Of a stretch of 24,313 nt of DNA, positions 1,374 to 22,216 are shown piece after piece. Source of the stretch: Ectocarpus siliculosus. Its lineage: Eukaryota; Sar; Phaeophyceae; Ectocarpales; Ectocarpaceae. The notes under the pieces are model-generated. The model saw nothing but the letters and a program-made list of their open reading frames with translations. It had not been told where the DNA came from and ran no database searches. Each line of letters begins with the position of its first letter. Position 1 is the first letter of the stretch. Where the stretch lies: assembly GCA_000310025.1 (NCBI GenBank), contig FN649746.1, forward strand, positions 643,526-667,838, read 5' to 3'. Both the position numbers and the translations under genes were made by a program.

Positions 1374-1740
1374 CTACTGAGCGTAGCGTTGTCGCAGGTC
1401 GCAGGTTTCCCACAGCAATACGCAACGCCACGGCCTTGTATAGTACTGTTGATCGTGGCGCGTCAAAACGCCTTCTTTTGTTGCCGGGGGGCAACACGGG
1501 AAACAAATGAATGCCTGACTCGCCTGCATGGACAACATGTCTTTGAGCTTGTTTGCCCTCGGTCGCTTTCGCGGATCTTGGTCCCAACACGAGGTGATGA
1601 GCGTTTCCTGGCCAACAGGACTCCCACGTGGGATCGGAAGACGGCCGCCATTGCCCACGTGAACTACAATCTTGTCCATGATGCGTACCTCTTCCCATGG
1701 AACCTTGAGAGTGAGCATCTGCCAACAGATGACCGCAAAG
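1374..1740 (-). CDS. Membrane-kinase gene, kinase C-lobe and C-terminal exon
   Basis: The acceptor is TTCCCGCTCAG; the first base completes the split Ser codon, giving SFAVICWQMLTLKVPWEEV (helix F and following). Later SCWDQDPRKRP with the conserved helix-I Arg marks the end of the kinase fold, and LKDMLSMQ closes it. A 48-residue Cys/Arg-rich tail runs to TAG at 1374-1376. An alternative is a GC-AG intron starting at CAG-GCGAGT directly after SMQ, which would remove this tail. Confidence 0.8.
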
Positions 1741-4700
1741 CTGAGCGGGAAAACACGCACAGACGGGAGGTAGGTGGTACGTCAGGGTTTTGCTGACGCA
1801 CGGTACCGTATTGTGCAGTATCAACAAAAGTTTAAATACTTACGAGCGTTCGCCGCGGCTCGTTTTTCGGCGATACATGAACGTGAGTCTGCGGGCCTGG
1901 CATACTAGTCTAGCTCAAGGTTCAAGGCTATTCCTCGATGTGTGTATCTACCTGCTACTCGTGAAAAATACTAAAAAAAAAAAAAGGCGAGCAGCACGCA
2001 GATAGCTTAGACTACACCGGAATAAATAATCGCAACCAGAGGTTTCCGCTAGGATATACTCCGTTTATGCCTTTTTCGGTCTCCGTGGCGCAAGAAATCC
2101 TAATCCTCGAACAACACAAGTCGTACCTGAAGACATCACTGCATGATGTGCATTCTTGCATGTCCATCACCTCGGGAGCAGCCCACTCGTATGTCCAACC
2201 GCGCGGGGCTGTAGAATCGCCAACTGGCTGTTCATGCACCCAACTGGAAAGCCCGAAGTCCGCCAGCTGACAGAGCAAGCAAGCAACGAAACGACGCAGT
2301 CAGAGCGAATGCCGTTTGAAAAATGCATGTTTCGGGCTCGCCAGACCTATAATTTAGATAAAGCAGCCATGAATGTATTGGCTACGAAATTAATACCAGT
2401 CAAAGCAATTTCGGCTGGGTCTCTCGTGGGTGCATTGATATGGTGCGGACGGGCCCGCTAAAGCCATAGCACCAGTGGTCTGGGGAAAGGGGGCTAAGCA
2501 CGAGGTTCTGCGACTGCAAAGAAAGGCTCGCCAAGAACGTCTGCACGTGGGAACGCCAGATGCCGGCCTGTTGAGATCGATATCAATAATATGGAGTAAT
2601 ATTTGTAATAGCTTTTGGTATCCCATTCCTTGGCCTTGTCATCCAAGTGTTGGTTTAGAGCAAACACAAAAAAAACTCCGGAGCACGAAGTAATTGTTTC
2701 CGGTGTCTCGTCTCACCTTCGCTTTTCCATCCCAGTCAAGCAAAATGTTGGCGGGTTTGATGTCGCCGTGAATCACGCCCTCCCCGTGCAGGTAGGCTAC
2801 CGCGGCGGCTATGTCCATCAATATGCCCCGCTGAAGGTCGACGCCGCTGGCTAGCTCGTCCTGCCCTGTTGTTGCTGCTGCCGCCGCGGCAGCGCGTGCG
2901 GCGATGAAGCGTTCCAGCGTCCCGCCGTTGACGAACTCCATGATAATGATGGTCTGTGGTGATGGCAGTCCATGTGGAACGACAATCAATCTACAATCAA
3001 CGTTGGATTGGCGTTCAGGATAGGCAAACAGGCGGGCGAGTTGTAAGGTAGCAAGAGAGAGGCTAGATACATAGTCGACACACCTTGCCTGACCACACGA
3101 GAGAGATGGGCAGACCCACAGCCCGAAGCCTAACGAGGAGTCAGGCTATCTGAAATACGTCTCCTATCGCCACGAGCATCAAGTTTGAAGGCAACCACGC
3201 CGACCGGATGGCGAGCCGAGACTCGGTTCGGTAGATTGGATTATCCTTTGAATAGTCTAAAATACCCGGTCAGTGCATAGTCACTGCCACAAAAATGCCC
3301 GATTAGGATTGCCGAAGACGCTACGGGTGTACGTACCTCCTCGACCAAACGGTACTGAACGATGCGGTGACCTACAGATACACAAGGGAGCAATGCGTGC
3401 GCACGCACGCACTGCTCCCAAAAATATGAGTTTTTTTCGCGGAAACAGCAGGATTTTCGGTTTTAGTTGTACACAGTACAATCGAGAAGCTGTGCGCACA
3501 AGTACTATGACTATCCATGTAGAAAAGAGGCTTAAACATGCTCCGTATCTGTGGTGGTAGCCCGCTCTGCTTGTTTACCCTGCCGTGACGTGTTTCACCG
3601 TCGTCCTCTCGCTGCTGTCGTCACGGTTTTCTGTCTCGTGGACACCTTGCTGTATCCAGTCGAAGGTGGGCTTCTCCGCCTGTTTGCCCTCAGCTAAAGC
3701 TTTCGTGTGTCTTGTGACGTGTGTGGGGGGGACCCTGTCCCGTCGCCTGCAACTAACTTTCTCGTGGTTCAGCAGTGTGGGGTACTTGAAAGCGTTCGTT
3801 TTTTGGGGTTCTCTGGAAAACCTGCCAAGGCTTATTTTGGTGGTTCGGAAACAACGCCCCACAAAAATAAAGCCAGTCCCAGCATCTTTTGGCGGCTACA
3901 TGTATGTACGCACGACCGGCGTCGTTCGAGACCCTCACGTAACGGGCAAAGTGCAGACGAGCCCGTGTCCCTTGAGGGAAAAAAACACGAGATACGGTAC
4001 AGCTGTGCCGGAGATACCCACCCAGGCCGTGTCCAAATTGACATGTATTTAGAGAATACAAGAGTTGATGTGTATAGTATTGGCACATGGAAACGATTGG
4101 TATTTTCGGTCTGACTGACGTAGTGAGCCATTCGCAGTCTCACAGTTACATAGCGCTCCCAAGGGGATCCCGTCGGACGTCCCTCATGCTGTTGCACATT
4201 ACAGACAGCACAGCGGCATAAATGAAGGAATCGAAACGAACGGCTGTACATAATGTCCCGCTTGGTACAACGTTCGACAGCAGTTACGTCGTATTCGTGC
4301 TTTTTTTTTACGGTCTCGTGTATCGCGCCGTGCATTTGACTGACTCATGGGTGGAAATCCGCGCGTGCGCTTTGCCGGGTCATCGGCATGCCTCCTGAGT
4401 GAAGCCTTACACCAAAACATTGTCAGCATGTGTGTTACGCGGCCGGTTATAGCGGGAAGGGGGGAATTGCCGATGCTGTCGAAGTCAAACTGGAACACGC
4501 ACCGATGTCCAGCATCTGTTGGGGATCATGCAGCCCAGGATTTCTGCTGACGTTGCAGTGAACAGTGTTGTCGTTGCATAGAACTAGCCCGAACGTTGCC
4601 TACGTTGCACAAGTGTAAGTCTTATACTAACATGCATGGCGAAATGTCTGAGGCAAGCGTATGACTGCTACGTCTGCACGGTCAGCTTCACGTCACCTGA

Positions 4701-7700
4701 CTCGGCTGGTGGACTATGCCGTCTAGCACGTTCACGATATGCGGCGACTTAAGGCGCCGCAACGTCTCCACCTCGCTTTCCAGGGTCTTCTGGCGAATGG
4801 CAAACTCTTCGTCGTTGTCCTCGTAGTCTCCCATTGAAATCACCTTAGCCGCCGCGTTCATGCCCCTGTAGTCGACTAGTTTCACCTGCAGCAGCAAGGT
4901 TCGAGGGGGGGAAATGGCGAGGACCGAGGTCTTATCTAACACCATGATGATAACCTTTGACAACCTTCCCGACGGATTCGCTGTTGTCAATGGCAATGAG
5001 CGTGCTCCAAAACCCGCATTTGGTCGGTACACAGCGCCGGAGCTTGCGCTTTGGCCGGCGGCAGTCAGTGCACGCGGTGGCAAATCATCTGTTATCGTTG
5101 TCCATCCGCGCCCGATATTTTGCACGTGCGCTCCCACTCGCTCGCACCCAACCCGCGGCGAGACGTTTCAAGGAGGGAGTTTGGCGAAGGTTACCTACCA
5201 TGCGAACAATTGTACGAGGATGACCATGATACTCCGGAGTATGATATTTTGACGGGTGCTGCGCCCGACCGATACTCCGGAGTGTGCTATTTGGACGGGT
5301 GCTGCGGCCAATCACGCCAAGCAATGGAAATCACCTGCTCGACGACAAAAACGTGCGTCGAGTTGGCAACAAAATATCACAAAAAGCCATGAATGAGTAT
5401 CAAAGGACGGACCAACCTGGCCGAATGCTCCCGATCCCAGGAAGTCTCCCAAACCCAGAAAGTCCACGCGAAGCGGAGGGGTGTCGTCGTCATGCGAGGA
5501 ACTCGAACGAAAAATATCTAAATATTTGGCCAGCAACATTTCCCGCTGCGCGTGAAAAACGTCGGGGCGAGGATTGTTAAGAATTAGTAATTGAACTGCC
5601 AACGCGTGCATTGATTGCCTGCCGGCCAAAAGCAAGGCAAAACCATTACTCACAAGCTCCATCGCTCTGTACCGACTAGGCACGGGTTTTGGATCATACT
5701 CATCCTAGCAAAAAACGTCGGGAAGAGTGTCAAGGGCTAAGATAGAGGCAAATACCATGAACTGTCAAGCCACGACATAAGGCCTGCTCGTGTGAAATAG
5801 GCGCTCATGTACCGTAAGGGCGCAGAATATGACATTCCACACGAATTGCTTGATGTATGGTAGGTCCCCCAAGCCTGACAACTGCCGAAAAGAAGGAAAT
5901 ATTGTTCAGACGTAGTCGGCACAACAATCTGAGGTATATTTTGAAATCATTTTCGAATTCCCCAGAGGCATTCCGTTCCCTGTGTTGGGAGGTACCGATG
6001 CAGGAAGGAGGACCCAAGTCCACGCTTTCACAGAAAGGTGCAGCAGGCACGAGAAGTAGCGTAGAAATTGAGACTGCACAGGAGAATCGAACACAGAGAG
6101 AAGCGCAATAACGCGGCTCCACTGTGGAAGCCAGGTTATACGTTTGTTCCTTCCTCCGTGAGTTACAGAGAATACTTTTTGCCAACGGTACGGAAGCAGC
6201 CAAGGCCGACCATAGCACAGCAAAGATAACCACTAATCTCTATTAGCACCCTACGACAAGGTGTTCCCAAGGCCACCCCCCAAAAGCGGCGGGCAGCCTT
6301 ACATATATAGTCTATCTACAGCAGCCCCGTCCTTGCTGGCCTTGACGCAATCTTTGTGGGATCAACAGAGATTCTTGTCCAGCAATACACCGTAACCAAC
6401 CGTCGCTATATACAATCCCCCTCTTTTCTAGAAAAGTGTGCTCGCCATCTCGTTGTACTGGGCACCCTCACACGTCGAAGCGTGCAACCAGTATTGACTC
6501 CACCCTCACCTCCCAGGGGTAAAGCGTGTCCACCGTGGTGCGATCCGTTTGCCATCCACCTAAGAAGCCAGGCAGCCAGCCCCCCTTTCGATGGAGCACG
6601 CGCATGAAAGTGTCGTTACGAAAGCTCTCCGCTGGCGGACTTTGCGAATATAATCCGTTTACTGTGTGTGTGGGGGGGGTACTCATGTTTTGCAGCCTTG
6701 GTTGTTAGACCATTGACCACGAGGACGGAGAATGTTTCCCGCGGGACGGATCGCCGATGGCTTCCCAACGCCACCCATTAAGGCCCTGTAAATAACACTT
6801 TTGTCGTTGAGAAATCGAGCCCTACAAATCGGCCCAAGGAAGGTGTTATCTTATGTCACATACGGTGGTACCGCCTTCCGAGGCCATCGAGATTTTTCAT
6901 CCCGTCCGTGCAGTCTTAAGGATACGACACAGAATCCTGGTCACAACCTTTAAGGGGGGACTCCTAAAAAAGCGACCCACAGGCTGAGTTCTTACAGGCT
7001 AAGGTGGTACAAGGAGTGTGAAGTGGGTTAGATATTGACGAAGGGGAAACGTTCGACGCGGACAGCCTAGGGGGGCAGAAGAAGGGCATACCAGAGGATT
7101 TTGAGAAGAGAGCCGACCAGAATATACGGAAAGAGACCTGGGAAAAGGAGGCTCTAGAAGGGTACGGAAGGGTAAACGAAGTAAGAGGGTTCAAGGAGCC
7201 TTGAATGGACCAATGGATGAAGGGACAAAGTTGAAAGCAAAAAATAGGACGGGTGACATTGACCTCCGATAACGAAGACGGAGATTTAGGAAGATAGACG
7301 AGGACGACGACAAGTTCAAACGTGAATGTGGCACCACCGAGTTCTAAGACAGGATTCATGTAGTTGGGGAACGCCCGCTTTACGCTAAGGAGAGAGAAGT
7401 CAGTGTAGATGGCTGAGCTATGTAGGAAAATAAAACATGCCAGACAGAGGGGAGGTTTCAAGCATGGGACAAAGAGGAGGAGACGGTAGCGGTACTGGGG
7501 GTATAAGAAGTGGACTAAGAAGACCAGGGACTAGTAGACAGGTAGGGAGGGAAAATATTGTTGCACCACCTTTGGCAAAGTAGGAAGGAACGCCGTAGAT
7601 TCACCGATACGTGTTGGAATCTGCCACAACGTGGAGAAATAGAGGTTTGAAAATCCGTCCAGGGGGTGTGGTATCTTGTGTCGCATATGGCACCTACACC

Positions 7701-10700
7701 GGTGATAATTACGTGATGCCGTCAGAACGCCGTACATACATAACCTTGTCAACCATCCCACAGATAGATTCAGATAGATTCAGATAGATTCGGGACCCCG
7801 TTTTCGGTTTTTGTTGATCACACAGCTTTATGGACGAGAACAGCGAGCCATCATGTATTCCACATTGATCGACTGGGAATGGGATGGAATACTTCGTGGT
7901 AGCACCATTGTGACCACGGAAAGCGCGCCGTCCCCCAACACCCCGAATGAGCAATAAGCGGTAGGGCATAGGTACTGACTCAGTGGAGTCGGAGTATTGT
8001 TTTTTGAACGTGAAGACAACACACACCATTGACATTTGACAGTCACCTTTGCCTTCGCTACGTCGTCGAGGCGCGATTTTGCCTCTTCCACCCGCTGCTT
8101 GTAGAGACAAGACTCCTCGCACTCGTCCATCGCCCCCTGTCGAATTTTGTGCTGAATGACCTGTGGCACCGCGGAGCGGAGGACAGCTCATAATTTTCTG
8201 CATCTCTTTGCTGTTTTAGATTTATCGAAGTGGTGGAAGCAAGTACTGTAGAGAGTAAGGAGGGGAAGTCGGCAAACAAACTTCCCAACCCCAACAACAC
8301 AACACGCCACTAAAGGGTCGATTGAGCGAGAGAGACGCGAAGATAGATATAATACTACGTTTGGTTTTGTGTGGCACAATCCAACCTGCGGCGCGGAGGA
8401 CACAAAATAAGTGGTGGAAGTAAGTAGAGAACGAGAAAGTGGAGTCGGCAAGCAAAACCCAACCCCAATACAAAAAGCTATTGGAGGGTCAATCGAGCGA
8501 GAGAGAAACCAAGATATGATACTTCAACACTAATGGACTACAGATTGGCCCTCCTGTGAGCAGGGGTCTGTACGCCAAGCTTGGACTACTGGAAGAGCTA
8601 ATTTTGAAATTCAATGAAAGAGAGCCCCACCAGAAACGTTTGGTGCTGCTTAGACGCTAGAACTAGCCGCTCACGAGCAACTACAGCCCAAGACACTGCT
8701 CTAGTTTGACTACCATGGTGTCTGAGAGTCTTCGCATACCCTGGAAAGCAGCGCTGGATGGTTATATGTCACGTGTGAGCTTCGGGGCTTGAACTTGAGT
8801 TTTTGCTCCAAAAAAGCGGAGATTTCACGTACGCACTTCAATACACGGCGCGGTGCTGTGTGTCATCCCTACTTGGCCAATCGAAAAACGGAAACAACGA
8901 AATTTGGGCTTGTCTGTTGTAGCGTCAGATGCCTAAAATTGTAGCGATTGTGCGGATGCTACGGGGCAAACATTTTCCGTTTAATGTTTTTGCCCGAAAA
9001 AGGCCCGAAAATCACCAAAAAGCGTGCAGACCCCTCTGATATTTCACAGACTATTTCTGGCCCCTGAAATAACGCTTCTGTTGATGCAGCCTCCCACACT
9101 ACTAGTTTCAAGTTATGGTTGCCACGGAGCCCCCCACGTATGACGAGCCTTCGCGTTTGAACCCCCCCTTTCTTTCCCTTTGGGATACAGCCCGGCCTTA
9201 AAGCGTTGGTCGAGCATCGTTTACTGGAAGAACACCGCGACTTTTTTACCTCTGCTAAGACCTTAGGCGTTAAGGGGTTGGTCGCATATCGCCTGCCTTA
9301 GTTGAAAAACGGTTACTTTCTTACCTCTGCTAAAGCCCCAAGGGCGCCGTCGAGCATCGACACCTCCTCCACGAGGCGAGCAGCCGGATACCCGTGGAGA
9401 ATGTTCTCCGAGTTCTGTTGGGCAGGTTGATGTTGCGAGCGGCCAAGGTCCACAACGACAACGAAAATGCAGTCTCTATTTATCATTAGTCGCTGTTGTC
9501 GGTGGCTACCACACTAACTAGCTGACCCAAAGCTAAAAGCCCGTGGTCACAAACCGCACCATGACGTGCGCTGGTGATTGAACGCACGACGTAAGTCCAC
9601 TGTGAGGGGGCTCGAGCACGGGTGGTACCTTCAAAAGTACTGGACTTCAATATATCATAGACTTGGGATGCGATCCAACTGGCTGAAATGGCGGACCCAA
9701 AAACGCTATCCACAACCAGTCATCCACCCGCAATGTCGACTATTGTCACTTGGTTACTCGCAGACACCGACGCACCCTCTGGTCGCACGTAGGCTCTGTG
9801 ACGCGCAGTACACGCACATGGCAGTTAGACTCCATTTTTGTCCAGCGTAAAAATACCCAATTAAACTCACCCTCAGTAGCCCATGCTGCCGTAGATCGTC
9901 CACCAGCGAAGCCAATGGTTCGGGCCACCTAACTCCACTGTTTTGAGCTTCTGCCTGTAGCAGCTGCAGTCTCGAAGCATGTACACTCATGTCGTCGGAT
10001 GAGCTGTTATTCACAAATTCTACCGCGGCGGACCTCAAGGCTCCACCAAAAAGATCGGACAGAGACTCCGAAGACTCCGAATTTGCGTCCAAGTTGTCTG
10101 AACTCCTAGAACGCGGAAGCGCCACATCTTGTACATCCTGTGCCGGCACAGCGTCAGCCGGTTCCGGCAGGACGTCATCCTGTGCCGGCAGGACGTCAGC
10201 TTGTGCCCGCAAGGCGTCCTCCTCTGTCGGAAAGTCCTCGTCAGCGTGTGCCGACCTCATCCTGTGTCGGAAAGGCCTCATCAGCTTGTGACGACCTTTG
10301 CGTTCCTGGACATTGGAATCGAAAGAAAATCGTGTGGGTATGTGTGCCAAGGAAAGCTTACAGTAAAGTGTGCGTATGATAGCACTCACTTCTGATATAC
10401 AGTTTGTGGCGTTGGTCGCCTACCGGTCTATTTAGAACAACGAATCACGCTCAATACGGTAGGGGTATCGAACGAGCGTTTGGTGCCAAAGTCACGAGCA
10501 AGAACGGAATGGCGTCACAACTCCGTTCTCGCGCGCTGACTCATTTTTCGGGATTGTATCACGCAAGTATTTAGTCCCAACGGGGTGAAACTTCGCATGC
10601 ACGACTATATATTCAGGCGACGTCATCTGATAATCTCAACGGGGTGAAAACCCGCGCCTGGAAGGGGCGGGCCGACCGCGCATTGTAAACCATGATGCGG

Positions 10701-13700
10701 CATGGCACGTGACGTACGAGCTGAGCGGCCCTGGGAGGCGCACGGCGATCTTCTGCCTCGGCACATCCCCAAAACAATTGCCCAAAGGCGGGAACCAATC
10801 ACGACACCTTGTAGCTGCGTAGTAGGTGACGCCCGAGCCCAAGCAAACATAGCGCGACCATAGTTGTGCGGGGTGACATCCAGCAGACGACGATCAGCCA
10901 ACGCACCGGCGACAAGGCAAACTGCATGTACGTGCAAAACAAAACAGCAAAAAGTGGGCGTGACGGACGGCGAAAATCGTACTTTTGCATGTGTGGGTTA
11001 ACCTGTAATCGGCAGTTCCTGGCACCGGCTTCAGAAAATTACACACAGACATCAACCGGCTTCAGAAAACTACCCATGTTACGCCAGGACCGTATACATC
11101 AGCTCGCTGCAGGAGCAGCTCTCGCAAGGGTTCAGAACGACAACCAGCAGCTTGGCGGCATCAAGCGGACATTCAACGACTCTCTCCCTCTAACACCAGG
11201 CCCGCGTGGCTGTAGTCGTGAACAAAATACGAATTGCGTTGGAGTGACGATCCGCAGCAGCGGCGAAATGCTCAGACGCGCAACAACTGGAGGGTCCTTT
11301 GCCAAGGCGTCCGAGTTAGCACCAGGGCGAGCTTGTCCGAAATGGACATCGTTTGTACATACGGTCTAAGGCGGTACATACGCCATTCATTGTAGTGAAC
11401 TGACAATTCAGACAGCTAAATCGTGGTCATTGTACGTCGGTACTTGTTGAAACATGTACATGCACGGAGTATTCAACAACGGCACGAGAGATGAGAGGAG
11501 TGCATGGATAAACAGATCGATAGATAAATGCTGACCCTATGATATTCTATGATGGTGCAGATAAATTGATCGACCTGCGATCAGGAAACCAGAAAATAGG
11601 CCCAGCCTGACTTTCTCGTTTGGGATCCGAAAGAACCCTCAGATTCTCACATCTTTACATATGGTTAACGCCAAAGAGCCTCCATGCGTTCATATTGTCC
11701 CCACATTTCAGCCTCCGTTTCTTCCTGACCACACTCTTGATAGCGGGCCGATATTGTATCGGCCTGCTATCAAGAAAATAGACTGCTCAAGCTCTAGAAC
11801 GGAACGGCGCCTCCCAAACTGTACGAGAGTCGATAGGCGCGTCGATCGCGTGTGTGTGCGCGCACTGACCCCGACAGCATTCGCGTCAAGCTTCGTCTTG
11901 CCCTTCGTTGTAAAAAATGGTGTTGGTTTCCGAAAACTTCTTCGTGGGTGGGTATGATATGGCTTTCTTCGTTAAACTCGTATGTACAGCACTCACCCAC
12001 TAGTAAGGAACACGAGTGACAACGTCAGGTGAGATTTGCTTACAAATTATAAAGACCAATACCTCAGAGTCCAGCGCCACACTAAACCCTTAACAATGGT
12101 TGGTCTAAAATAAGAAACTCAGCCTTATGTTGCTTTGCCGTTTCTTGCTAATCGCCCCGTTCTGTGTATGTATGAGCTATGTCATTGAAAATACAGTATC
12201 TACCTGATGTTCTGATATGGTTGTTTCTCTGATTCGCTCTGCCGGTTGGTTCTCATAGAGAAAACAGTGTTCACCATTTAGGCTGCTGCCGCCCCATGTG
12301 GTTAACTGGTGGGTGAGAGCGCTACATGATACTCGCACCTGAACGATCATTCCCAAGAGGCAGGTATCCACGGCAAGCACATACCCGAACCTCGAGCTCG
12401 GCGACAGCAGCAGGGATGATATCACCAGTAATCCCGGGGGATTGTGCGCAAGGTAGATCATCGAGCCGATGATGTACACACATCGCCAAAAAACTCCCAA
12501 GGACCGCTCAATATTGGATTGTCGTTGCTCCCCGCACTGTACCAGCTGTAACAGTTTCAACAGTGGTCCCGGCAACATGAATGCGAGACCCAGAGCGAAC
12601 AGTAAGGCTCTACTTGCAAAATCTCTTTCCCCTGTGTTCTCCTCGTTCTCTCCCCATCGTTGTTCCAGACGATCCTTTGCGGCGCGTGCAGCCCTCGCGT
12701 TGAGGACGGCCGTGGCAAACACGCCACACACCATGGCCTTTTCCGTCGAGCGTAGGCTTGTTGCTACAATAGGGAGAAATCTCGTGCAGAGAACCGAACC
12801 CGTCGCCAACCCCCAGGTGGGCCCCAGCGATCCAGCCGACCACAGTATCTCCTTCTCGAAGGCGATGCTGTACGCGTGTCGAACAGCAGTAGTCGCGAGA
12901 AGCAACGATGCGACCGTAGGTAGAGAAATCCAAGACCAGGGGGATGGGTCCCAGTAGCACTCCTGCCGCATTTGCACCATGTTCCAAACGAACATCTGGC
13001 TCGCGAACGAGACTCCCACGGCAGCACACCTACAGAGTAGCAAGAAAGTGATGCGAGGTATGGGGAGTGAGTTGGCCGAACGACCGTGCAAACAATCTAT
13101 TAACAGCTCGCTCGCGTCCGGGACAGCTAGCTGAGCCCCACATGAGTGATACATCGTAACTTGTGGCGTGGCCAAAAGGGGGGACCACATGAACGCCGCA
13201 ATTGGCATCCACTCCAATGCGTTGATTAGCGAACCTTTCCATGTCTGTCTAAGCAAGAACCAGAAATCAGCCTGACGCAAGCAAGCAAGTTTGTTGCCGA
13301 AGCTATACTCGTTCACAGCTTTGACCTGTCGACGCAATATACTGATGCCCCAACAAAGGTGTGCGAGCGTGGAGTAGAAAAAGAAACGCAAACCTCGACG
13401 AGTGTGCAACGCGTACCATGAAGCTTTACACAGCAGTATTGGCCCGCCGTCAAGAAAGCGGCCGTGAAGAAAATGAGGCTGAAAGGTGGAAAAATAAGAA
13501 AGCGGCGAGCCTCTGCGCCGTCAACCCAGCAATCCCACTGTGCCAATTCAAAACACAAGTGGGACGGTTATCAAGGGTAACACATAAGAAAGTCAGGCTG
13601 GGCCTATGCATAGTTTGGTTTTTCTTATGACAGGCCCATACTGAAGCTACACTCATCCCCCAAAGGGCAGGTCCTTGCGGACCGTGACGATTTGTCCCCA

Positions 13701-13981
13701 TACTTCATACTTGTGTTTGTCTGTGTTCCAGTAGTAGTCCGGTACGATAGGTTCACTTCAACATGTACAATGTCTCCGGTTGGACTTCATTATTGAAAAA
13801 CGTTGCTGCGCTGCAGCGCCAAATGTTGCCGTTCGACGGCTTCTACATCTGCGTTCACCGGTATGGCGTGTAGTTTTTTTTCTTTCGCCCACGGGCTGAG
13901 CGGAATTTCTGCAGCTCCTCCAGAGGGTTTCTCGCTGTCCAACTCAACAGTGTCTCGCGCTGCAAGTGGCGGAAGGCCGGC
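1374..13981 (-). CDS. Multi-pass membrane TKL-like protein kinase, nine exons (5' end incomplete)
   Basis: Seen: exons at 13802-13981, 12339-13478, 9871-10305, 8047-8160, 5417-5704, 4697-4885, 2717-2953, 2127-2266 and 1374-1740 (transcribed in that order) join to one open frame of 3090 nt, 1029 codons plus TAG. All introns are GT-AG; all junctions are phase 0 except the last (phase 2). Layout by residue of the recovered part: 1-60 polar; 61-440 membrane module; 441-585 acidic/Ser-rich linker; 586-623 charged helix; 624-705 helical pre-kinase region; about 705-985 kinase; short Cys-rich tail. Kinase landmarks: LGSGAFGQ 712-719, Lys 733, probable helix-C Glu 757, HGDIKPAN 844-851, DFG 864-866, APE 891-893, SDVFSF with helix-F Asp 905. 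Family knowledge: the TKL-type kinase fold phosphorylates Ser/Thr or Tyr. Inference: a membrane-anchored signalling kinase. Kinase part is secure; joining the membrane exons to it rests on phase and splice sites only, so two adjacent genes remain possible. Confidence 0.62.
2127..2266 (-). CDS. Membrane-kinase gene, activation-segment exon
   Basis: 140 nt, starting in phase 0 and ending after two bases of a Ser codon. Acceptor GCTCTGTCAG, donor TTCAG then GTACGA. It contains LADFGLSSW (DFG Asp 864) and the activation segment ending YEWAAPEV (APE 891-893). It then reaches SDVF, where the helix-F Asp 905 lies. The P+1 region has Trp-Thr-Tyr in place of the common Gly-Thr, as in several TKL kinases. 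Confidence 0.85.
2717..2953 (-). CDS. Membrane-kinase gene, hinge and catalytic loop exon
   Basis: 79 codons, phase 0 at both ends; acceptor CCATCACCACAG, donor GCGAAG then GTGAGA. It starts in the hinge (TIIIMEFVNGGTLERFI; Met 787 is the likely gatekeeper). A low-complexity Ala/Thr insertion follows, near residues 803-810. Helix E (AVAYLHGEGV) and the catalytic loop IHGDIKPANILLD come next. Asp 846, Lys 848 and Asn 851 are the catalytic residues. The usual HRD Arg is Gly here, so this is a non-RD kinase. Confidence 0.87.
2954..4696 (-). other. Kinase intron, 1743 bp
   Basis: The intron lies between the kinase N-lobe exon and the hinge exon (GTGACG to CCACAG). The protein sequence joins perfectly across it (HQPSQ then TIIIMEF), so no kinase exon is missing. 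Several open frames occur on both strands (for example 3585-4052 plus, 3832-4335 minus), but none carries a recognisable motif. A short palindrome TGCGTGCGCACGCA lies near 3396. Confidence 0.7.
4697..4885 (-). CDS. Membrane-kinase gene, kinase N-lobe exon
   Basis: 63 codons, phase 0 at both ends; acceptor TTGCTGCTGCAG, donor GAGTCAG then GTGACG. It contains VKLVDYRGMNAAAKVISMGD with the ATP-binding Lys (gene residue 733), then helix C (LESEVETLRRL, probable Glu 757) and strand 4 (SPHIVNVLDGIVHQPSQ). This is a standard TKL-type N-lobe with no insertion. Confidence 0.85.
4886..5416 (-). other. Kinase intron, 531 bp, with 43-bp tandem duplication
   Basis: This intron splits the glycine loop between Gln and Val. 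It contains a two-copy 43-bp tandem repeat (5228-5270 and 5271-5313). No coding content is expected. Confidence 0.7.
5228..5313. repeat. 43-bp tandem duplication centred on ATACTCCGGAGTAT
   Basis: Copy 1 (5228-5270) starts GATACTCCGGAGTATGATAT and copy 2 (5271-5313) starts GATACTCCGGAGTGTGCTAT; both then read into GACGGGTGCTGCG. Copy 1 carries the perfect 14-bp palindrome ATACTCCGGAGTAT at 5229-5242; in copy 2 the right arm has one change. Confidence 0.9.
5417..5704 (-). CDS. Membrane-kinase gene, pre-kinase helices and glycine loop exon
   Basis: 96 codons, phase 0 at both ends. The acceptor is TTTTTTGCTAG before Asp-Glu-Tyr-Asp; the donor is GGCCAG then GTTGGT. After a helical, Leu/Ala-rich stretch and an acidic Ser-Asp patch (SSSSHDDDTPP), it ends in FLGLGDFLGSGAFGQ, the nucleotide-binding glycine loop of a protein kinase. 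The next exon supplies the loop's final Val, which fixes the junction. Confidence 0.8.
6964..7461. other. Purine-rich block open on both strands; possible decayed element
   Basis: The plus strand is strongly purine-rich. On the minus strand a frame is open for 165 codons (Ser/Phe/Pro-rich). On the plus strand a 50-60 codon stretch also reads like charged protein (for example KKGIPEDFEKRADQNIRKET), before a TGA near 7204. It then resumes in another frame (GPMDEGTKLKAKNRTGDIDL). I cannot decide the strand and recognise no family. Base composition alone can keep both strands open. Confidence 0.3.
7763..7790. repeat. Short tandem repeat CAGATAGATT
   Basis: Three consecutive near-identical units of about 10-11 bp (CAGATAGATT) form a simple-sequence repeat in a kinase intron. 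Confidence 0.8.
8047..8160 (-). CDS. Membrane-kinase gene, charged helical exon
   Basis: Short exon of exactly 38 codons, phase 0 at both ends. Acceptor GTGCCACAG, donor GCAAAG then GTGACT. The peptide runs from VIQHKIRQGAMDE through a CEESC motif to VEEAKSRLDDVAKAK and is predicted by eye to be helical, possibly coiled coil. It links the Ser-rich exon to the pre-kinase exon. Its acceptor sits at the edge of a duplicated intron segment (8163-8525). Confidence 0.5.
8163..8525. repeat. Diverged tandem segmental duplication
   Basis: Copy A (8163-8355) and copy B (8370-8525) share in order: GTGGCAC, GCGGAGGACA, AAGTGGTGGAAG, AGTCGGCAA, CCCAACCCCAA, AGGGTC followed by GAGCGAGAGAGA, and a final AAGATA. 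Copy A has about 35 extra bases near 8186-8227. The duplication abuts the splice acceptor of the exon at 8047-8160, so copy B could carry a decayed duplicate of that acceptor region. Confidence 0.75.
9190..9340. repeat. Imperfect direct repeat, 75-bp period
   Basis: The block ACCTCTGCTAA recurs at 9248-9258 and 9323-9333. Flanking shared blocks include a GGTCG-CAT-ATCG-type motif (near 9208, 9280 and 9347) and CTTAGGCG-like sequence. About two imperfect copies are present. Confidence 0.65.
9871..10305 (-). CDS. Membrane-kinase gene, acidic/Ser-rich linker exon with 7-residue repeats
   Basis: 145 codons, phase 0 at both ends; acceptor CCAATGTCCAG before Glu-Arg-Lys, donor the textbook GTGAGT. 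It begins strongly basic (ERKGRHKLMRPFRHRMRS), fitting a juxtamembrane cytosolic stretch directly after the last membrane helix. Next come about five imperfect 7-residue units of the type VLPAQDD / VLPEPAD / AVPAQDV, encoded by a 21-bp minisatellite. Then follows a Ser-rich acidic part (SRSSDNLDANSESSESLSDL) that could be phosphorylated, and a helical end (LASLVDDLRQHGLLR). No known domain is recognised. A further minus-strand donor (GTGAGT at 10384-10389) lies 84 bp upstream, so a tiny exon at about 10390-10419 may precede this one. Confidence 0.55.
10130..10290. repeat. 21-bp coding minisatellite
   Basis: Successive plus-strand units such as GTCATCCTGTGCCGGCAGGAC and GTCAGCTTGTGCCCGCAAGGC follow a 21-bp period. 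The period is a multiple of three, so copy-number change keeps the minus-strand frame. The encoded unit is seven residues (VLPAQDD-like). Confidence 0.8.
10866..11369 (+). other. Unassigned 167-codon plus-strand ORF
   Basis: An ATG-to-stop frame on the strand opposite the kinase gene. Its middle (RIHQLAAGAALARVQNDNQQ) reads like ordinary protein, but no family is recognised. The N-terminal third contains a duplicated phrase from a local direct repeat. It could be a small gene nested in the intron or chance. Confidence 0.2.
11736..11774. repeat. 39-nt inverted repeat (18-bp arms, 3-nt loop)
   Basis: The left arm is CTTGATAGCGGGCCGATA, the loop TTG, and the right arm TATCGGCCTGCTATCAAG. The arms pair over 18 positions with one mismatch. 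It lies in the presumed kinase-gene intron. It could be a remnant of a small transposon or a structured RNA element. Confidence 0.9.
12339..13478 (-). CDS. Membrane-kinase gene, polytopic membrane module exon
   Basis: One 1140-nt exon, 380 codons, phase 0 at both ends. The acceptor has a strong pyrimidine tract ending CCACCTTTCAG; the donor is CAG then GTGCGAGT at 12338. Hydrophobic segments, by exon residue, lie near 31-48, 86-103, 143-166, 181-199, 212-240, 247-262, 291-313, 328-358 (one or two) and 364-380, with a charged loop (KDRLEQRWGENEENTGERD) at 268-286. An open frame also continues past the donor to a TAG at 12177, so an unspliced end there is the alternative. The only family hint is weak: FLDGGPILLCKASW followed by a helix with LAHLCWGISILRRQ recalls the layout of XK-related proteins (acidic-x-x-Pro in one helix, then Ser/Leu/Trp-rich helix). 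I do not claim membership. As a stand-alone gene it would be an unknown membrane protein. Confidence 0.62.
13802..13981 (-). CDS. Membrane-kinase gene, first recognisable exon (N-terminal polar segment)
   Basis: The exon holds 60 codons in phase 0 at both ends. Its acceptor is CTTGTCCCAG before Ala-Gly-Leu. The donor after Ser-Asn is GTTTTT, which is weak. The peptide is polar and charged (for example TVELDSEKPSGGAAEIPLSP), with no hydrophobic stretch, as expected for a cytosolic N-terminal arm ahead of the membrane module. No start codon lies in it. A possible upstream coding piece starts MWETLRALCHMMKLPRP near 14182 and could splice at GTAGGC in phase 0, but this is not demonstrable. If the weak donor is not used, the frame stops three codons further on, so this could instead be the end of a different small gene. 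Confidence 0.45.
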
Positions 13982-14207: not shown

Positions 14208-14575
14208 CCCATGGGCTGCCCATAGGCACCACGTTTTGCCCATGGGCTGCGCATGGGGAATGCCCACGGGCAAGCCCATGGGAAACCCGGGGGCAGCCCA
14301 TGGGCAGCCCATGGGTGGTCAATGAGTGCCCTTCAACCGGAACCAATGAACTCCTAAGCAACCATAGATAGATTATAACAGCAACCAACCCTATCGCCAA
14401 CCCTAGCCCTAACTCCAAGCCCACAAGATACGTGCTAGCCGGGTGGCCAAGTTCTAGGTTGATGTGCCGATGACCAAGTTGTAGGTTGATATGCCGGTGG
14501 CGAAGTTCTAGGTTGAAGTGCCCATGGTGGGCAACTCGTGGGCAGTTCATGGGCTACCCATGGGTGTCCCATGGG
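14208..14575. repeat. Cluster of seven CCCATGGG palindromes
   Basis: Perfect copies lie at 14208-14215, 14239-14246, 14275-14282, 14297-14304, 14308-14315, 14557-14564 and 14568-14575. Variant CCCATGG/CCCACGGG/GCATGGGG copies lie between them, mostly in GGCAGCCCATGGGC context. The block is interrupted by the 27-bp repeats. Confidence 0.95.
14447..14527. repeat. Three tandem 27-bp repeats
   Basis: Units at 14447-14473, 14474-14500 and 14501-14527 share CCAAGTTCTAGGTTGATGTG-like sequence, with changes at a few positions. The period is a multiple of three, and the minus strand is open through it (HRHINLQLG-like units). No other coding evidence exists. Confidence 0.9.
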
Positions 14576-15675
14576 CGATTTAGCAAAAACTTAGCAAAAA
14601 CTGCCAGTAGTGTGGGGGTTGCGCCCGCAACCACGCGTGTGCACGATTTTTTTTTCTCGAAAAAGCTTTGAATAAATAAGTGCAAACAAATTGCCAAAGG
14701 GTTGCCAAACACGCACGCATGAGAGTATCACGAGCCGCAAGAGGGATGTCGGTTCCTCTCCATTCTACGTTAACGCCCAACCGGCATAGACAGTTGTCAC
14801 GCATGGCTGAATGACTGTAGGAGGAGGGGCCGCGACTTTGGCTGTGCTGTATCTTGCTCGGTCAATTTCTTTACTTTTTCGCGTTCACATAATTACGCTG
14901 GAAAATTGGCTGGCCGCCCCCCTCTTCACGGCAGATGCAACTTCTAATTTTCAAGTAGGATGAACTCTTCATCACGGCACACAAACACTCGACTGCATCT
15001 AAAAATTTTCCAGAAAATTGTCCGTATGTACCGGAGTGCTGACGTACGTGGACTCAAGCCCGCGACCATCAAGTACGCACAACATTCCACCCACTCCTCG
15101 ATCTGCAATCAAAACAGGTCCTACGTTTGTTATTAGAGAGCTTCACCGTTTATCCAATGCTTGCTGTTGCCTGCGGTCTCTTACATCTATTCATGCGCAT
15201 GCTGGCTTCAGTTTTGGATTGCACACATGGATTATGTTGGCTCGTTTTCGACTTCGCAACGTTTTGCCTCCTGTTCTCTCTACCACATCAGAGATGTGCT
15301 GCAATAATAGTCATATCTGTGAGACCGCAAACTACGTGTGTGTGTATGCTTTTCCTCCCTCTGTGTGCGCACACGTGCATACAATACCCTACCTCCGCAC
15401 TTCAGCGCTCCAGCAACACTATCTCATCCCGTCACAAACGTCTTTCATTCACATCTACTTTTGAATGTGTTTTTTTGCACCTTGACTTCTTTGTGCGACT
15501 CAAATCCCGACGGTACAAAGATGACGTATCATCGTACTAAGCATGCACATGCATAGTCTATGTATCATCGGAGAGCTTCTCTACGAGTCAAAAAGTAATA
15601 TAAAATCTGTTTGACCCGGCAGAGATGTGCAGGGTTCTTATTAATACTGAATCCCAAAAAAGCAGCGTTCTTATT

Positions 15676-15743: not shown

Positions 15744-15842
15744 TAATACATCCCACGGAGCCAGTCCATCTCGGGGAGTGTTCTTCCTTTTTTTGTGTTT
15801 CTTACTCCTTTTTTTCAAAGAAAGACTACACCCAAGGGTTAC

Positions 15843-15986
15843 CTTGCGAAGGTGGCCTCGCCGTAGCGGCGATCGAGCGAGTAGAAACGGGTGTAATGCG
15901 CCTTGAAGACCTTGAAGCAGCGGGTGGTCTTCCCCACGCGGGTAACGAGCATCTTGCACACGCTATCCACGCTCTTCACCTCGGAC
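15843..15986 (-). CDS. ATPase exon: end of actuator domain (last recognisable)
   Basis: The acceptor is AAATCGTTCAG, and its phase matches the previous exon, giving AGSEVKSVDSVCKMLVTRVG. This aligns with the family's SGTxVxxGxxxMLVTAVG strand pair. The exon may end at CTTCAAG (GTCTTC donor, 15911) in phase 0, or run to GCAAG (GTAACC donor, 15843) after KVFKAHYTRFYSLDRRYGEA. If neither donor is used, the frame stops at once in TAA. No later ATPase exon was found. Confidence 0.6.
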
Positions 15987-16131
15987 CTGAACGATTTTGT
16001 TTTTCGGTGCCGTTGAGTGCATCCGTGTAAGAAAAGGGCAAGGGCGGTACAGTCCATTCAGTAATTAACTGCTTGAAGCTGGTGTTTGGCAAACACACAG
16101 CTAGAACACGCTACAAAATCCGCTACTACCG

Positions 16132-16757: not shown

Positions 16758-17330
16758 CCATGACAAAACAATTGAAGGATGGGGACTTGCCTTTGGAGTA
16801 GTTGGTGGCTCTTTTTCTGAGACCTCGTGCAACATTCATGTGGAAACCGTCGAAAATAGGGCCAATGTGTCGGCCGAGAAACGTTTGTGTCCAGGGCATT
16901 AATTTGGGTGGAGGAAAAGGTAAGAACCGTTGCAATTTGTTAATCGCCTTCCTGGGGTGGTCAACCTCACAAACATAAAATATATAATGCTTTAGACGAA
17001 CACAAACACAATTTTTAGACTCTGATAGTAACCCTCTCCAATCCCTCATAAAACGAGTTTACGTTTTTTTTTGTGGGACGGACCGAGGAATGAAAAATAA
17101 CCCTACCAGTCATCGATCCATGACATCTACCGAACGTAGACACAATGGAACTACATGCCAGGAGTGCGCGGCGCCAATATAATAATTGATTGCCATCTGT
17201 TCTATGAAGGCGTCTGCCATAGGACTCTGAGAGCAGAATTTCAGATGCCACTACGTGTTCTGTCTCGGTTTTTTTCCCAACTGGTTGTATCCGTGGTGTG
17301 TTGCTCTTTAGCTACTTGTTTGCTGCTCAC

Positions 17331-17515
17331 CCGGCGAAGATGAAACGGTCAAGCGCAGGACTTTTGTGCGCATCCTGATGTTCGCGTTCGGTCGCCAAAT
17401 GTCTTTGGTCCACCCGCATCGACCCAGACTCATCGAGTAGCATTCCATCGGCGCAGACGCGGTCACCGGCCCTGAGTTCGAGCACGTCTCCAACCACAAT
17501 ATCGCGGGAACGAAT
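17331..17515 (-). CDS. ATPase exon: actuator domain core with degenerate TGES loop
   Basis: 185 nt, starting in phase 0 and ending phase 2; acceptor GGCCCCCTGGCAG, donor GCCGG then GTGAGC. IRSRDIVVGDVLELRAGDRV and CADGMLLDES are classic actuator strands. The next segment, MRVDQRHLATEREHQDAHKS, aligns with the region that holds xxxLTGES in working pumps; here only the Leu and Glu remain. FIFAG ends the exon. Confidence 0.8.
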
Positions 17516-18296
17516 CTGCCAGGGGGCCGCAGGAAGCAAGAAGACGTACACAGCAGTCAGTATCGGCCAAAGCGTAAGAAGCACCTTCACAAGAAATCCG
17601 GCCCCACATAAAAATAAAGTAAGAAATTCGGTCTTTTACTACAATAAGTGTGGGCTCAGTGGCAGGCACTACACAAAACCCTATACAAGATCCTGTGGTT
17701 GGTGGCGGGGGACAACATATGGTTTCGAGCCCCGGTCAAAATCGGTGGTTCTTATGAGCGAGCCGGTACAGTATAATTGTAGGCGACCTCGCAAGGAACG
17801 TTCCATCTGTCGGGCAAACAAGTGGTATCACACGGAAGTTATACGAAGTAGTACAATCTGAAATCCGGCCAGTCATGTGGTCGCCACGAAAAAAGACTCT
17901 TGCCTTTTCGCGCAAGGATCGAGGCTTCTCTTTTCCACACCACTACACACCGGCTATTATGGTAGGGTTTAGTGTGGCGTGGGCGCTGCGCACTTGTTTG
18001 TTCGTTCAACTTCCTACAAAAAAACAAGTCGAGCCTGAATTTCTTATCTGCCTGTTTCTTTAGTGGTGGCCGCATCTGTGTGCAAGCTTGCAAGGTAGTA
18101 CTTTCAGCGCCTACTGCACTGACGTAACGTTTCCATACCTAGAGGAAACTAAACCAGTGACATCGAGTCCACAATGCGATGAAAATCGAGAGAAACTGGG
18201 AGTATCTATTGACTAAAATGCTTCACGTATGCAAATAGCGATCATCTGCCGTTCATTCTAATGAGAAGGAGGCACACACGCGGCTGTTTAACGTAC

Positions 18297-20998: not shown

Positions 20999-22216
20999 AC
21001 AGGCTGCTGTTCGTTATTTGTGCTTGATCGTCGTTTCACGATTGTTCCTACTACTCTGCGTCGTGTGCCGACTCCAGGAGCTCGACCGAGAAGGAGAACA
21101 CCGCTCTTAATGTGCTTCATCGACCTACACAAGGCCCATGACTTGGTGGACCGAGAGCTGCTGTGGAAGGTACTGGCCAGGGTCCGTATTCCCAAGGAGT
21201 TGGTCGGCATCATCAGCAAACTCCACGACGGAATGCGGGCCCGGGTGCGCATGGACGACGGAGAGCTATCGGACTGGTTCCCGGTCACGCATGGCCTGCT
21301 GTTAACATTTAACGTATTCTTCGCCGCGGCCCGTGCGATTTCAGCGAGAATGATGTTATTATGCAGAACTTGATACACCTGGCAGAGGAGACGGGAGCGG
21401 GGGCGAGGACATCAATCCACTGTGTACCGAGGGCGGCGTGCGGGATGCTGTATGCCGACGACACCCGCGTTGTTTCGAGGTTAGCCGTCAGACTGGCGAG
21501 GATGATGGTCGTTATCGTGGACGTGTTCGGGGATGTCGGCCTGACGGTACCGGAGAAGAAGACGGAGACCCATCAACATACATGGCGACCTCACCCGGGA
21601 GATCAACCACAGGACCAGAGCAGCGTGGGCGTGCGTCAGGAGATATGGTCCCGAGCTCTTCGACAGGCCGAGAGCACCGTTTCGACTCAGTTTCCGGACG
21701 GGCAACTCCCGAAACGACTGATGTTCGGGGAACTGGTAGGGGGGGAGGACCCGGGCAGGGGGTGTCCGGAGCATAGCTGGCTGACGTGCCTGAAGGACAC
21801 CCTCAAGGCGTTCGGGGCTGGGCACACGGCTTTACGGACGGCGCGAGGTGTACCTTCGGAGTCCCAAAATTCATTTGGACGGAAGCAGCGAAGGTGAAGG
21901 GGGAGTATCTTGGCGTGCAGGGGTTTTGATGGGAGTGAAGAAGTACATGGACTCACGGCACAAGGACGAAGAGGAGGCTAGCCGACAACGAGCGACCAAG
22001 CACAACAAAGAGCCCCGAAATACTAGAGATACGGCAACAGCCAACGGGGCGGCGGACCAGAAGGAGGACAAAATGGCGAGGGAAGAAAGGAACGGAGAAG
22101 AGGCGGACTGGGTGGCGCGTCATGTGCCGGATCGAGTTTCTTGGACAAGTTTTTCCCCTCCCCCGATCGATGCACCATTGCACCACCTCCCCAGGAGAAA
22201 TGACAAAAAAAATTGA
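20999..22216 (+). pseudogene. Decayed non-LTR (LINE-type) retrotransposon, reverse transcriptase and 3' end
   Basis: Reverse-transcriptase palm pieces are clear. Motif A region CFIDLHKAHDLVDRELLW begins near 21113, then IPKELVGIISKLHDGMRARV, and the YADD catalytic box is at 21451-21462, followed by VFGDVGLTVPEKKTET. Frame breaks are visible: RLQELD-type sequence upstream of motif A is in a different frame, and the region that normally holds motif B and the SPLLF block is shortened (VTHGLLLTFNVFF). YADD lies in a third frame, and after KTET the frame shifts again (GDLTREINHRTRAAWACVRR). Then a deletion joins to QLPKRLMFGELVGGEDPG. Later pieces (FGVPKFIWTEAAKV, HKDEEEASRQRATK) alternate frames and end in an A-rich tail near 22205-22216. 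The copy cannot encode an active enzyme. The 5' end is truncated. Confidence 0.85.

Follow-up and report, generated by a model that had tools for sequence, protein, structure and literature searches.

A multi-pass membrane part is unusual among the receptor kinases of plants. Here we describe a locus of the brown alga Ectocarpus siliculosus in which such a part, a polytopic membrane module, appears to be joined through a basic stretch and a serine-rich linker to a kinase of the tyrosine kinase-like (TKL) class. The locus lies on the minus strand of a 24,313-nucleotide stretch of contig FN649746.1 (C21:643526-667838), hereafter the window, and all positions are those of the window unless a contig is named. 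The closest described systems come from other lineages. Excerpts of two studies of Phytophthora infestans describe TKL kinases carrying between one and nine membrane segments, placed in oomycete-specific subfamilies (PMC3019232), and 17 fusions of a G protein-coupled receptor (GPCR) with a TKL kinase (PMC5784254). GPCR-TKL bigrams of oomycetes and amoebozoans have an N-terminal multi-pass part and a C-terminal TKL kinase (PMC5784254, PMC6033456), and the portion of the 2018 survey drawn on here reports no evidence for them outside these two groups (PMC5784254). The absence of fusions between GPCRs and phosphatidylinositol phosphate kinases is called uncertain, in the same partial accounts, for lineages with few genomes such as brown algae (PMC5784254, PMC6033456). 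A set of GPCR-TKL/K proteins in acanthoecid choanoflagellates, with a seven-transmembrane (7TM) domain established by its authors, is considered independent in origin; the excerpted text holds that multi-pass receptor-kinase fusions arose repeatedly and that, as far as its authors know, the function of none has been characterised (PMC12716839). For Ectocarpus, the passages available report two leucine-rich repeat receptor kinases (PMC3268121) and GPCR-like genes (PMC3879662). Among the matches listed in a search of open-licence literature, no title or abstract opening mentions a brown-algal TKL kinase of the multi-pass type.

The locus shares with the bigrams the order of its parts, with the oomycete kinases the combination of kinase and membrane segments (a likeness taken from their description), and with the choanoflagellate proteins, which belong to another lineage, the proposed pairing of a membrane bundle with a TKL-related kinase. 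It differs from the 7TM bigrams in its predicted 6-10 helices and in that a Pfam scan revealed neither a 7TM signature nor a DEP domain after the kinase. The architecture itself is therefore known, multi-pass TKL kinases having been published for oomycetes, amoebozoans and choanoflagellates. A preliminary description of this DNA had called it unusual, which is true in comparison with plant receptor kinases and with 22 other kinase loci of Ectocarpus but not in comparison with oomycetes (as excerpted from PMC3019232 and PMC5784254). If the locus is one gene, it adds a lineage not reported in the literature covered here and an unrecognised membrane module.

Exons of the membrane module, linker and kinase

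The membrane-module exon lies in an open minus-strand frame of 447 codons (13520-12177). This length is beyond chance: the longest frame had 313 codons among 300 Markov resamples and 368 among 300 block-wise ones, and none of the 600 reached 447. Of 352 noncoding windows of 200 codons, which overlap and are not matched to the exon in length, one reached the synonymous-codon score of the whole exon. The first of the hydrophobic stretches falls in a head without codon support, and the last was divided into two for topology prediction. Enumeration under the positive-inside rule gave 6 to 10 helices among the top six topologies at each of three weightings, the best having 8, 8 and 6; the nine hydrophobic stretches stand, and the 8-9 membrane segments proposed earlier become a wider, weighting-dependent range. 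The C-terminus of the module is placed in the cytosol in all top topologies at the three weightings, which is not independent evidence of fusion because the basic stretch that follows the last helix enters into the scoring. Single-sequence structure prediction returned a helical model with a mean predicted local distance difference test score of 40, too poor for use.

Database searches revealed no relative of the module. A Pfam scan gave no family at E up to 1 (its filters may lose weak matches), a PDB search gave no match at E up to 10, and searches of the Ectocarpus genome, here and below over 189 Mb, returned the module itself plus two chance-level rows (E 0.59 and 5.8). There was no pattern match in IMG/VR, and none of 31 pattern matches in GTDB genomes was a relative. 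Given these results, with Ectocarpus the one stramenopile genome covered, the module is possibly a family unlike known receptors and a lineage-specific sensor.

An origin from XK-related proteins (PF09815), suggested by motifs seen by eye, was rejected for lack of statistical support. These polytopic proteins are present in the genome as long single open frames (C477:18917-19630, C476:289696-290430 and C8:1159506-1160246), and their likeness to the module is by eye only. The Pfam scan gave no PF09815 match, profile comparison gave a probability of 0.2% (E 0.38), and BLASTP was likewise without support. A hidden Markov model of five XKR-like sequences from the genome scored the membrane exon at -1.1 and its reverse at -0.4; of 500 shuffles, 370 were reported and 94 of these scored as high as the exon, under a shallow profile that could miss a very distant relation. 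Semi-global alignments to four XKR-like sequences gave z of -1.26 to -0.43.

The kinase domain is well defined, as the preliminary description had proposed. Exons 5545-1374 match PF07714 nearly end to end (E 2.4e-46, 158.6 bits against a cut-off of 23.1, profile positions 4-257 of 258) and also PF00069 (E 2.2e-42). Alignment to CTR1 (3ppz) places the glycine loop, lysine, glutamate, catalytic aspartate, DFG and APE, and on the basis of these motifs alone the kinase is probably catalytically active. Its catalytic loop reads HGD (HGDIK), not HRD; receptor-type relatives in the genome carry HGDLK and other kinases there HRD. The best PDB matches are CTR1 (1e-30) and focal adhesion kinase (1.1e-30), and its placement as TKL as opposed to tyrosine kinase is provisional.

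The exon pieces have the GT/AG borders assigned to them previously and join into one frame with a single stop at its end, encoding 974 residues. The earlier count of nine exons does not hold: the same span contains ten pieces, and a probable eleventh at 9414-9325 would lengthen the product to 1,004 residues. This added exon has the second-best of nine donors (6.0) and 0.27 per codon in an all-codon model; it is weaker on synonymous sites alone, where 56 of 665 noncoding windows reach its score. All junctions are phase 0 except that between exons 2266-2127 and 1740-1374, in keeping with the mostly phase-0 junctions noted before.

Both ends of the chain are less certain than its middle. The exon at 13981-13859, taken earlier as the first, is matched in score by 392 of 628 noncoding windows and has a weak donor (1.5, at 13858); for the 51 codons that open the membrane exon (13478-13326) the figure is 282 of 628. 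A search for a start exon over 15838-13330 found, with donors of at least 0, a best phase-0 ATG exon whose donor scores 0.5, and with a donor threshold of 2 two candidates, neither in phase 0. In-frame ATGs at 13208 and 13154 are possible starts that would shorten the membrane bundle, and the gene probably begins between 15.8 and 13.1 kb. At the other end, the 56 codons that precede the stop (1545-1377) also look noncoding, so the protein may in fact end elsewhere. The noncoding-like ends and the want of a good start exon leave the previously proposed chain reasonably firm only from about 13.2 kb to 1.55 kb.

Table 1. Features of the proposed gene and of the disputed region, in order along the minus strand.
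Feature	Window positions	Strand	Basis or remark
First exon of the preliminary description, doubtful	13859-13981	-	no ATG, weak donor, noncoding-like codons
Membrane-module exon	12339-13478	-	nine hydrophobic stretches in 380 codons
Continuation of the open membrane frame beyond the donor	12177-12338	-	noncoding-like, taken as intron
Candidate intron joining membrane module to linker (disputed step)	10306-12338	-	2,033 bases
Alternative first exon, hydrophobic anchor, weak donor	10808-10927	-	would place the kinase in a gene of its own
Linker exon with basic juxtamembrane stretch and acidic, Ser-rich part	9871-10305	-	GT/AG borders, phase, codon score
Probable extra linker exon, absent from the preliminary description	9325-9414	-	90 nt, phase 0
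Linker exon	8047-8160	-	GT/AG borders, codon score
Linker exon, 51 nt	5654-5704	-	codon score not separable from noncoding
Linker and glycine-loop exon (kinase subdomain I)	5417-5545	-	alignment, Pfam
Kinase exon, ATP lysine and helix-C glutamate	4697-4885	-	alignment, Pfam
Kinase exon, catalytic loop HGDIKPAN	2717-2953	-	alignment, Pfam
Kinase exon, DFG and APE motifs	2127-2266	-	alignment, Pfam
Last kinase exon, to stop	1374-1740	-	alignment, codon score

One gene or two

Judged from sequence, we moderately favour a single minus-strand gene in which the polytopic membrane module, basic stretch, serine-rich linker and TKL kinase follow one another to the stop at 1374. The step in dispute is the splice that would join bundle and linker in a protein presumed to lie in the membrane. 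The intron that this splice requires falls within the gene's intron range (108 to 2,342 bases), and its two sites score like the kinase's own under hand-set generic weights that were not trained on this genome: the donor at 12338 (CAG/GTGCGA) scores 4.3 against 1.9 to 6.6 for the other eight accepted donors, and the linker acceptor at 10305 scores 2.62 in a range of 1.88 to 3.75 for ten scored acceptors. In the last third of the membrane exon the third-position GC content (GC3) is 0.61, and 26 of 502 noncoding windows reach the score. Past 12338 the frame stays open for 53 further codons with a GC3 of 0.42, and 520 of 628 noncoding windows reach or exceed its score; from this low codon signal, splicing at 12338 is a more probable end of the exon than the stop at 12177. 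Upstream of the linker acceptor, as far as the preceding stop, there is no in-frame ATG. The first residues of the linker exon are ERKGRHKL, four lysine or arginine residues in eight, and the single-pass receptor kinases of the genome have a comparable basic stretch directly after their membrane helix. Four such residues in eight occur at AG sites open for eight codons in 28 of 994 cases on the minus and 37 of 1,098 on the plus strand of the window, and in 347 of 10,487 and 311 of 10,386 in the fetched loci; eight in 17, which the exon also shows, occur in 3 of 750, 4 of 796, 71 of 8,235 and 61 of 8,030, in a test that was post hoc. The proposal of one fused gene thus stands as the better-supported reading on the codon drop, the basic stretch and the precedent of multi-pass TKL kinases in oomycetes, but faces a competing anchor exon at 10927-10808 and the lack of a second copy of the module.

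Agreement in phase was dropped as evidence for fusion. It had been given a one-in-three chance per junction, which overstates its value since phase 0 dominates the gene (7 of 8 junctions within linker and kinase). Of 27 motif ends in 15 loci of kinase relatives, 23 have GT after them in phase 0 and the four misses have GC; the motifs were picked for resembling phase-0 exon ends, and junctions in other phases could not be counted, so the figure shows only that such ends are common. We also rejected the idea that a repeat or transposon underlies the large intron, since 1,901 of its 2,033 bases matched only themselves in a search that skipped simple repeats.

Several observations weigh against a single gene, beginning with the post hoc character of the basic-stretch test and the poor start-exon candidates. 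In the all-codon model the membrane exon scores -0.05 per codon, in the upper range of noncoding windows but below their 95% point of -0.02. The codon drop at 12338 is not unique because a 40-codon dip inside the exon (12680-12561; GC3 0.47, -0.15 per codon) is as low as the read-through. In linker exon 10305-9871 another of the three frames has a better synonymous score than the one proposed, and a genome search with the linker matched, outside the window, only at the glycine loop. No clear multi-pass module like the membrane exon was seen in the 22 kinase loci surveyed below. The disputed intron itself contains the three most coding-like stretches of the scored non-exon regions (11.3, 11.2 and 9.4; next 8.0), somewhat above those in other introns, together with acceptor-to-stop stretches that could terminate the membrane part and one anchor exon in which the kinase could start.

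These contents of the intron would suit two adjacent genes, an arrangement we think rather unlikely: a polytopic protein with a small terminal exon in 12.3-10.6 kb, and a separate TKL kinase that starts in the anchor exon or at an ATG within the linker exon (10281 or 10260). The anchor exon is a hydrophobic phase-0 ATG exon able to join the linker exon, and the receptor-type relatives in the genome are single-pass. A separate kinase start near 10.3 kb, which the preliminary description held would split the gene, has the two linker-exon ATGs as candidates. The donor of the anchor exon scores 1.2 against 1.9-6.6 for accepted donors, and codon scores there are close to zero. A two-gene arrangement would moreover require a further terminal exon for the membrane part, and with an ATG inside the linker exon the preceding basic stretch would become a coincidence. 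That the locus is decaying or mis-assembled, its pseudogene pieces or chimaeric contig never having made one protein, is very improbable; the missing start exon, the head and tail without codon support and the module's lack of a paralogue fit such an origin, but the long frame, kinase motifs and splice sites are intact over 12 kb.

Within the single-gene reading, and overlapping it in probability, the product could be an algal GPCR-TKL bigram, a 7TM receptor with a TKL kinase. We regard this as improbable. The parts have the same order in a related lineage, and seven-helix topologies with N-terminus out and C-terminus in rank fourth and third at two of the three weightings; the module, however, matched no Pfam family at E up to 1, its top topologies have other helix numbers, and the 2018 survey, as excerpted, reports no evidence for GPCR-TKLs beyond oomycetes and amoebozoans (PMC5784254). 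We put forward more tentatively than the single gene itself that this is a multi-pass sensor of an undescribed membrane family, joined directly to a TKL kinase in an event separate from those that produced the GPCR-kinase fusions of oomycetes, amoebozoans and choanoflagellates.

Related kinases and neighbouring sequence

The 14 best-scoring kinase rows outside the window show 34-41% identity to a query without the glycine loop. For 22 kinase matches out of 86 rows outside the window we surveyed some 9 kb of upstream sequence, a survey that would miss modules split over small exons; one locus (L024) is 71% N, another (L030) has no frame over the length limit, and the upstream frames of two more (L005 and L016) received a cursory inspection. 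Loci with readable upstream frames resemble single-pass receptors or soluble kinases. At a hydropathy threshold that counts six stretches in the membrane exon itself, the richest single frames were one in L026 with five (406 aa) and one in L013 with four (179 aa). The L026 frame is partly a cysteine run in apparent intron read-through, and both were judged unlike the membrane module.

Thirteen of these loci (L004, L006-L015, L025 and L026) form a family of single-pass receptor-type TKL kinases. Their kinase domain is related to that of the present gene, with an HGDxK catalytic loop where the exon was seen, but they have one evident membrane helix and a different linker, and lack at that place the intron found here within the glycine loop. 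A helix-rich stretch separating the membrane helix from the kinase is common to several of them; one example, joined from L010, gave no Pfam match above cut-off. Another kinase match lies at C21:678254-678460, about 10 kb past the right edge of the window. Elsewhere in the genome, MLKL_N (PF22215) matches above cut-off directly upstream of TKL kinase frames in L023 (7692-8423, on C10; 1.9e-9) and L029 (8531-9112, on C29; 5.5e-9). These matches suggest MLKL-like cell-death kinases in a photosynthetic brown-algal genome, and no paper on such kinases in brown algae was among the matches listed in the literature search.

Around the gene, the minus strand carries at 15839-16057 a strongly coding-like stretch (15985-15840, GC3 0.88) that ends in a stop and is probably the end of an upstream gene; its weak CpeT-like match (E 0.02, below cut-off) was not recovered by a genome search with the family. 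Degenerate short repeats on CCCATGG/CCATGGGC were seen by eye at 14220-14600. A P-type ATPase fragment lies at 17327-17635 on the minus strand (PF00122, 9.4e-8), with no match in the adjoining minus-strand frames scanned. On the plus strand, 21313-21897 is likely a retroelement remnant, with a YADD motif and a weak match to reverse transcriptase that stays below cut-off (PF00078, E 0.0037).

A possible role in brown-algal signalling

From its architecture, the product of the proposed gene is most likely a receptor or sensor kinase. The last helix of the bundle would run into the cytosolic basic stretch, the acidic serine-rich linker and the TKL kinase. A signal acting on the bundle may shift the position or dimer state of the linker, and this change would switch the kinase, which would then phosphorylate serine or threonine residues of its targets. 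The genome gives 87 exon-level matches to light-harvesting proteins. If the proposal is true, the locus would provide a further independent instance of a multi-pass receptor kinase, in a photosynthetic and probably multicellular stramenopile, and a candidate sensor for brown-algal signalling whose membrane module is unlike known receptors.

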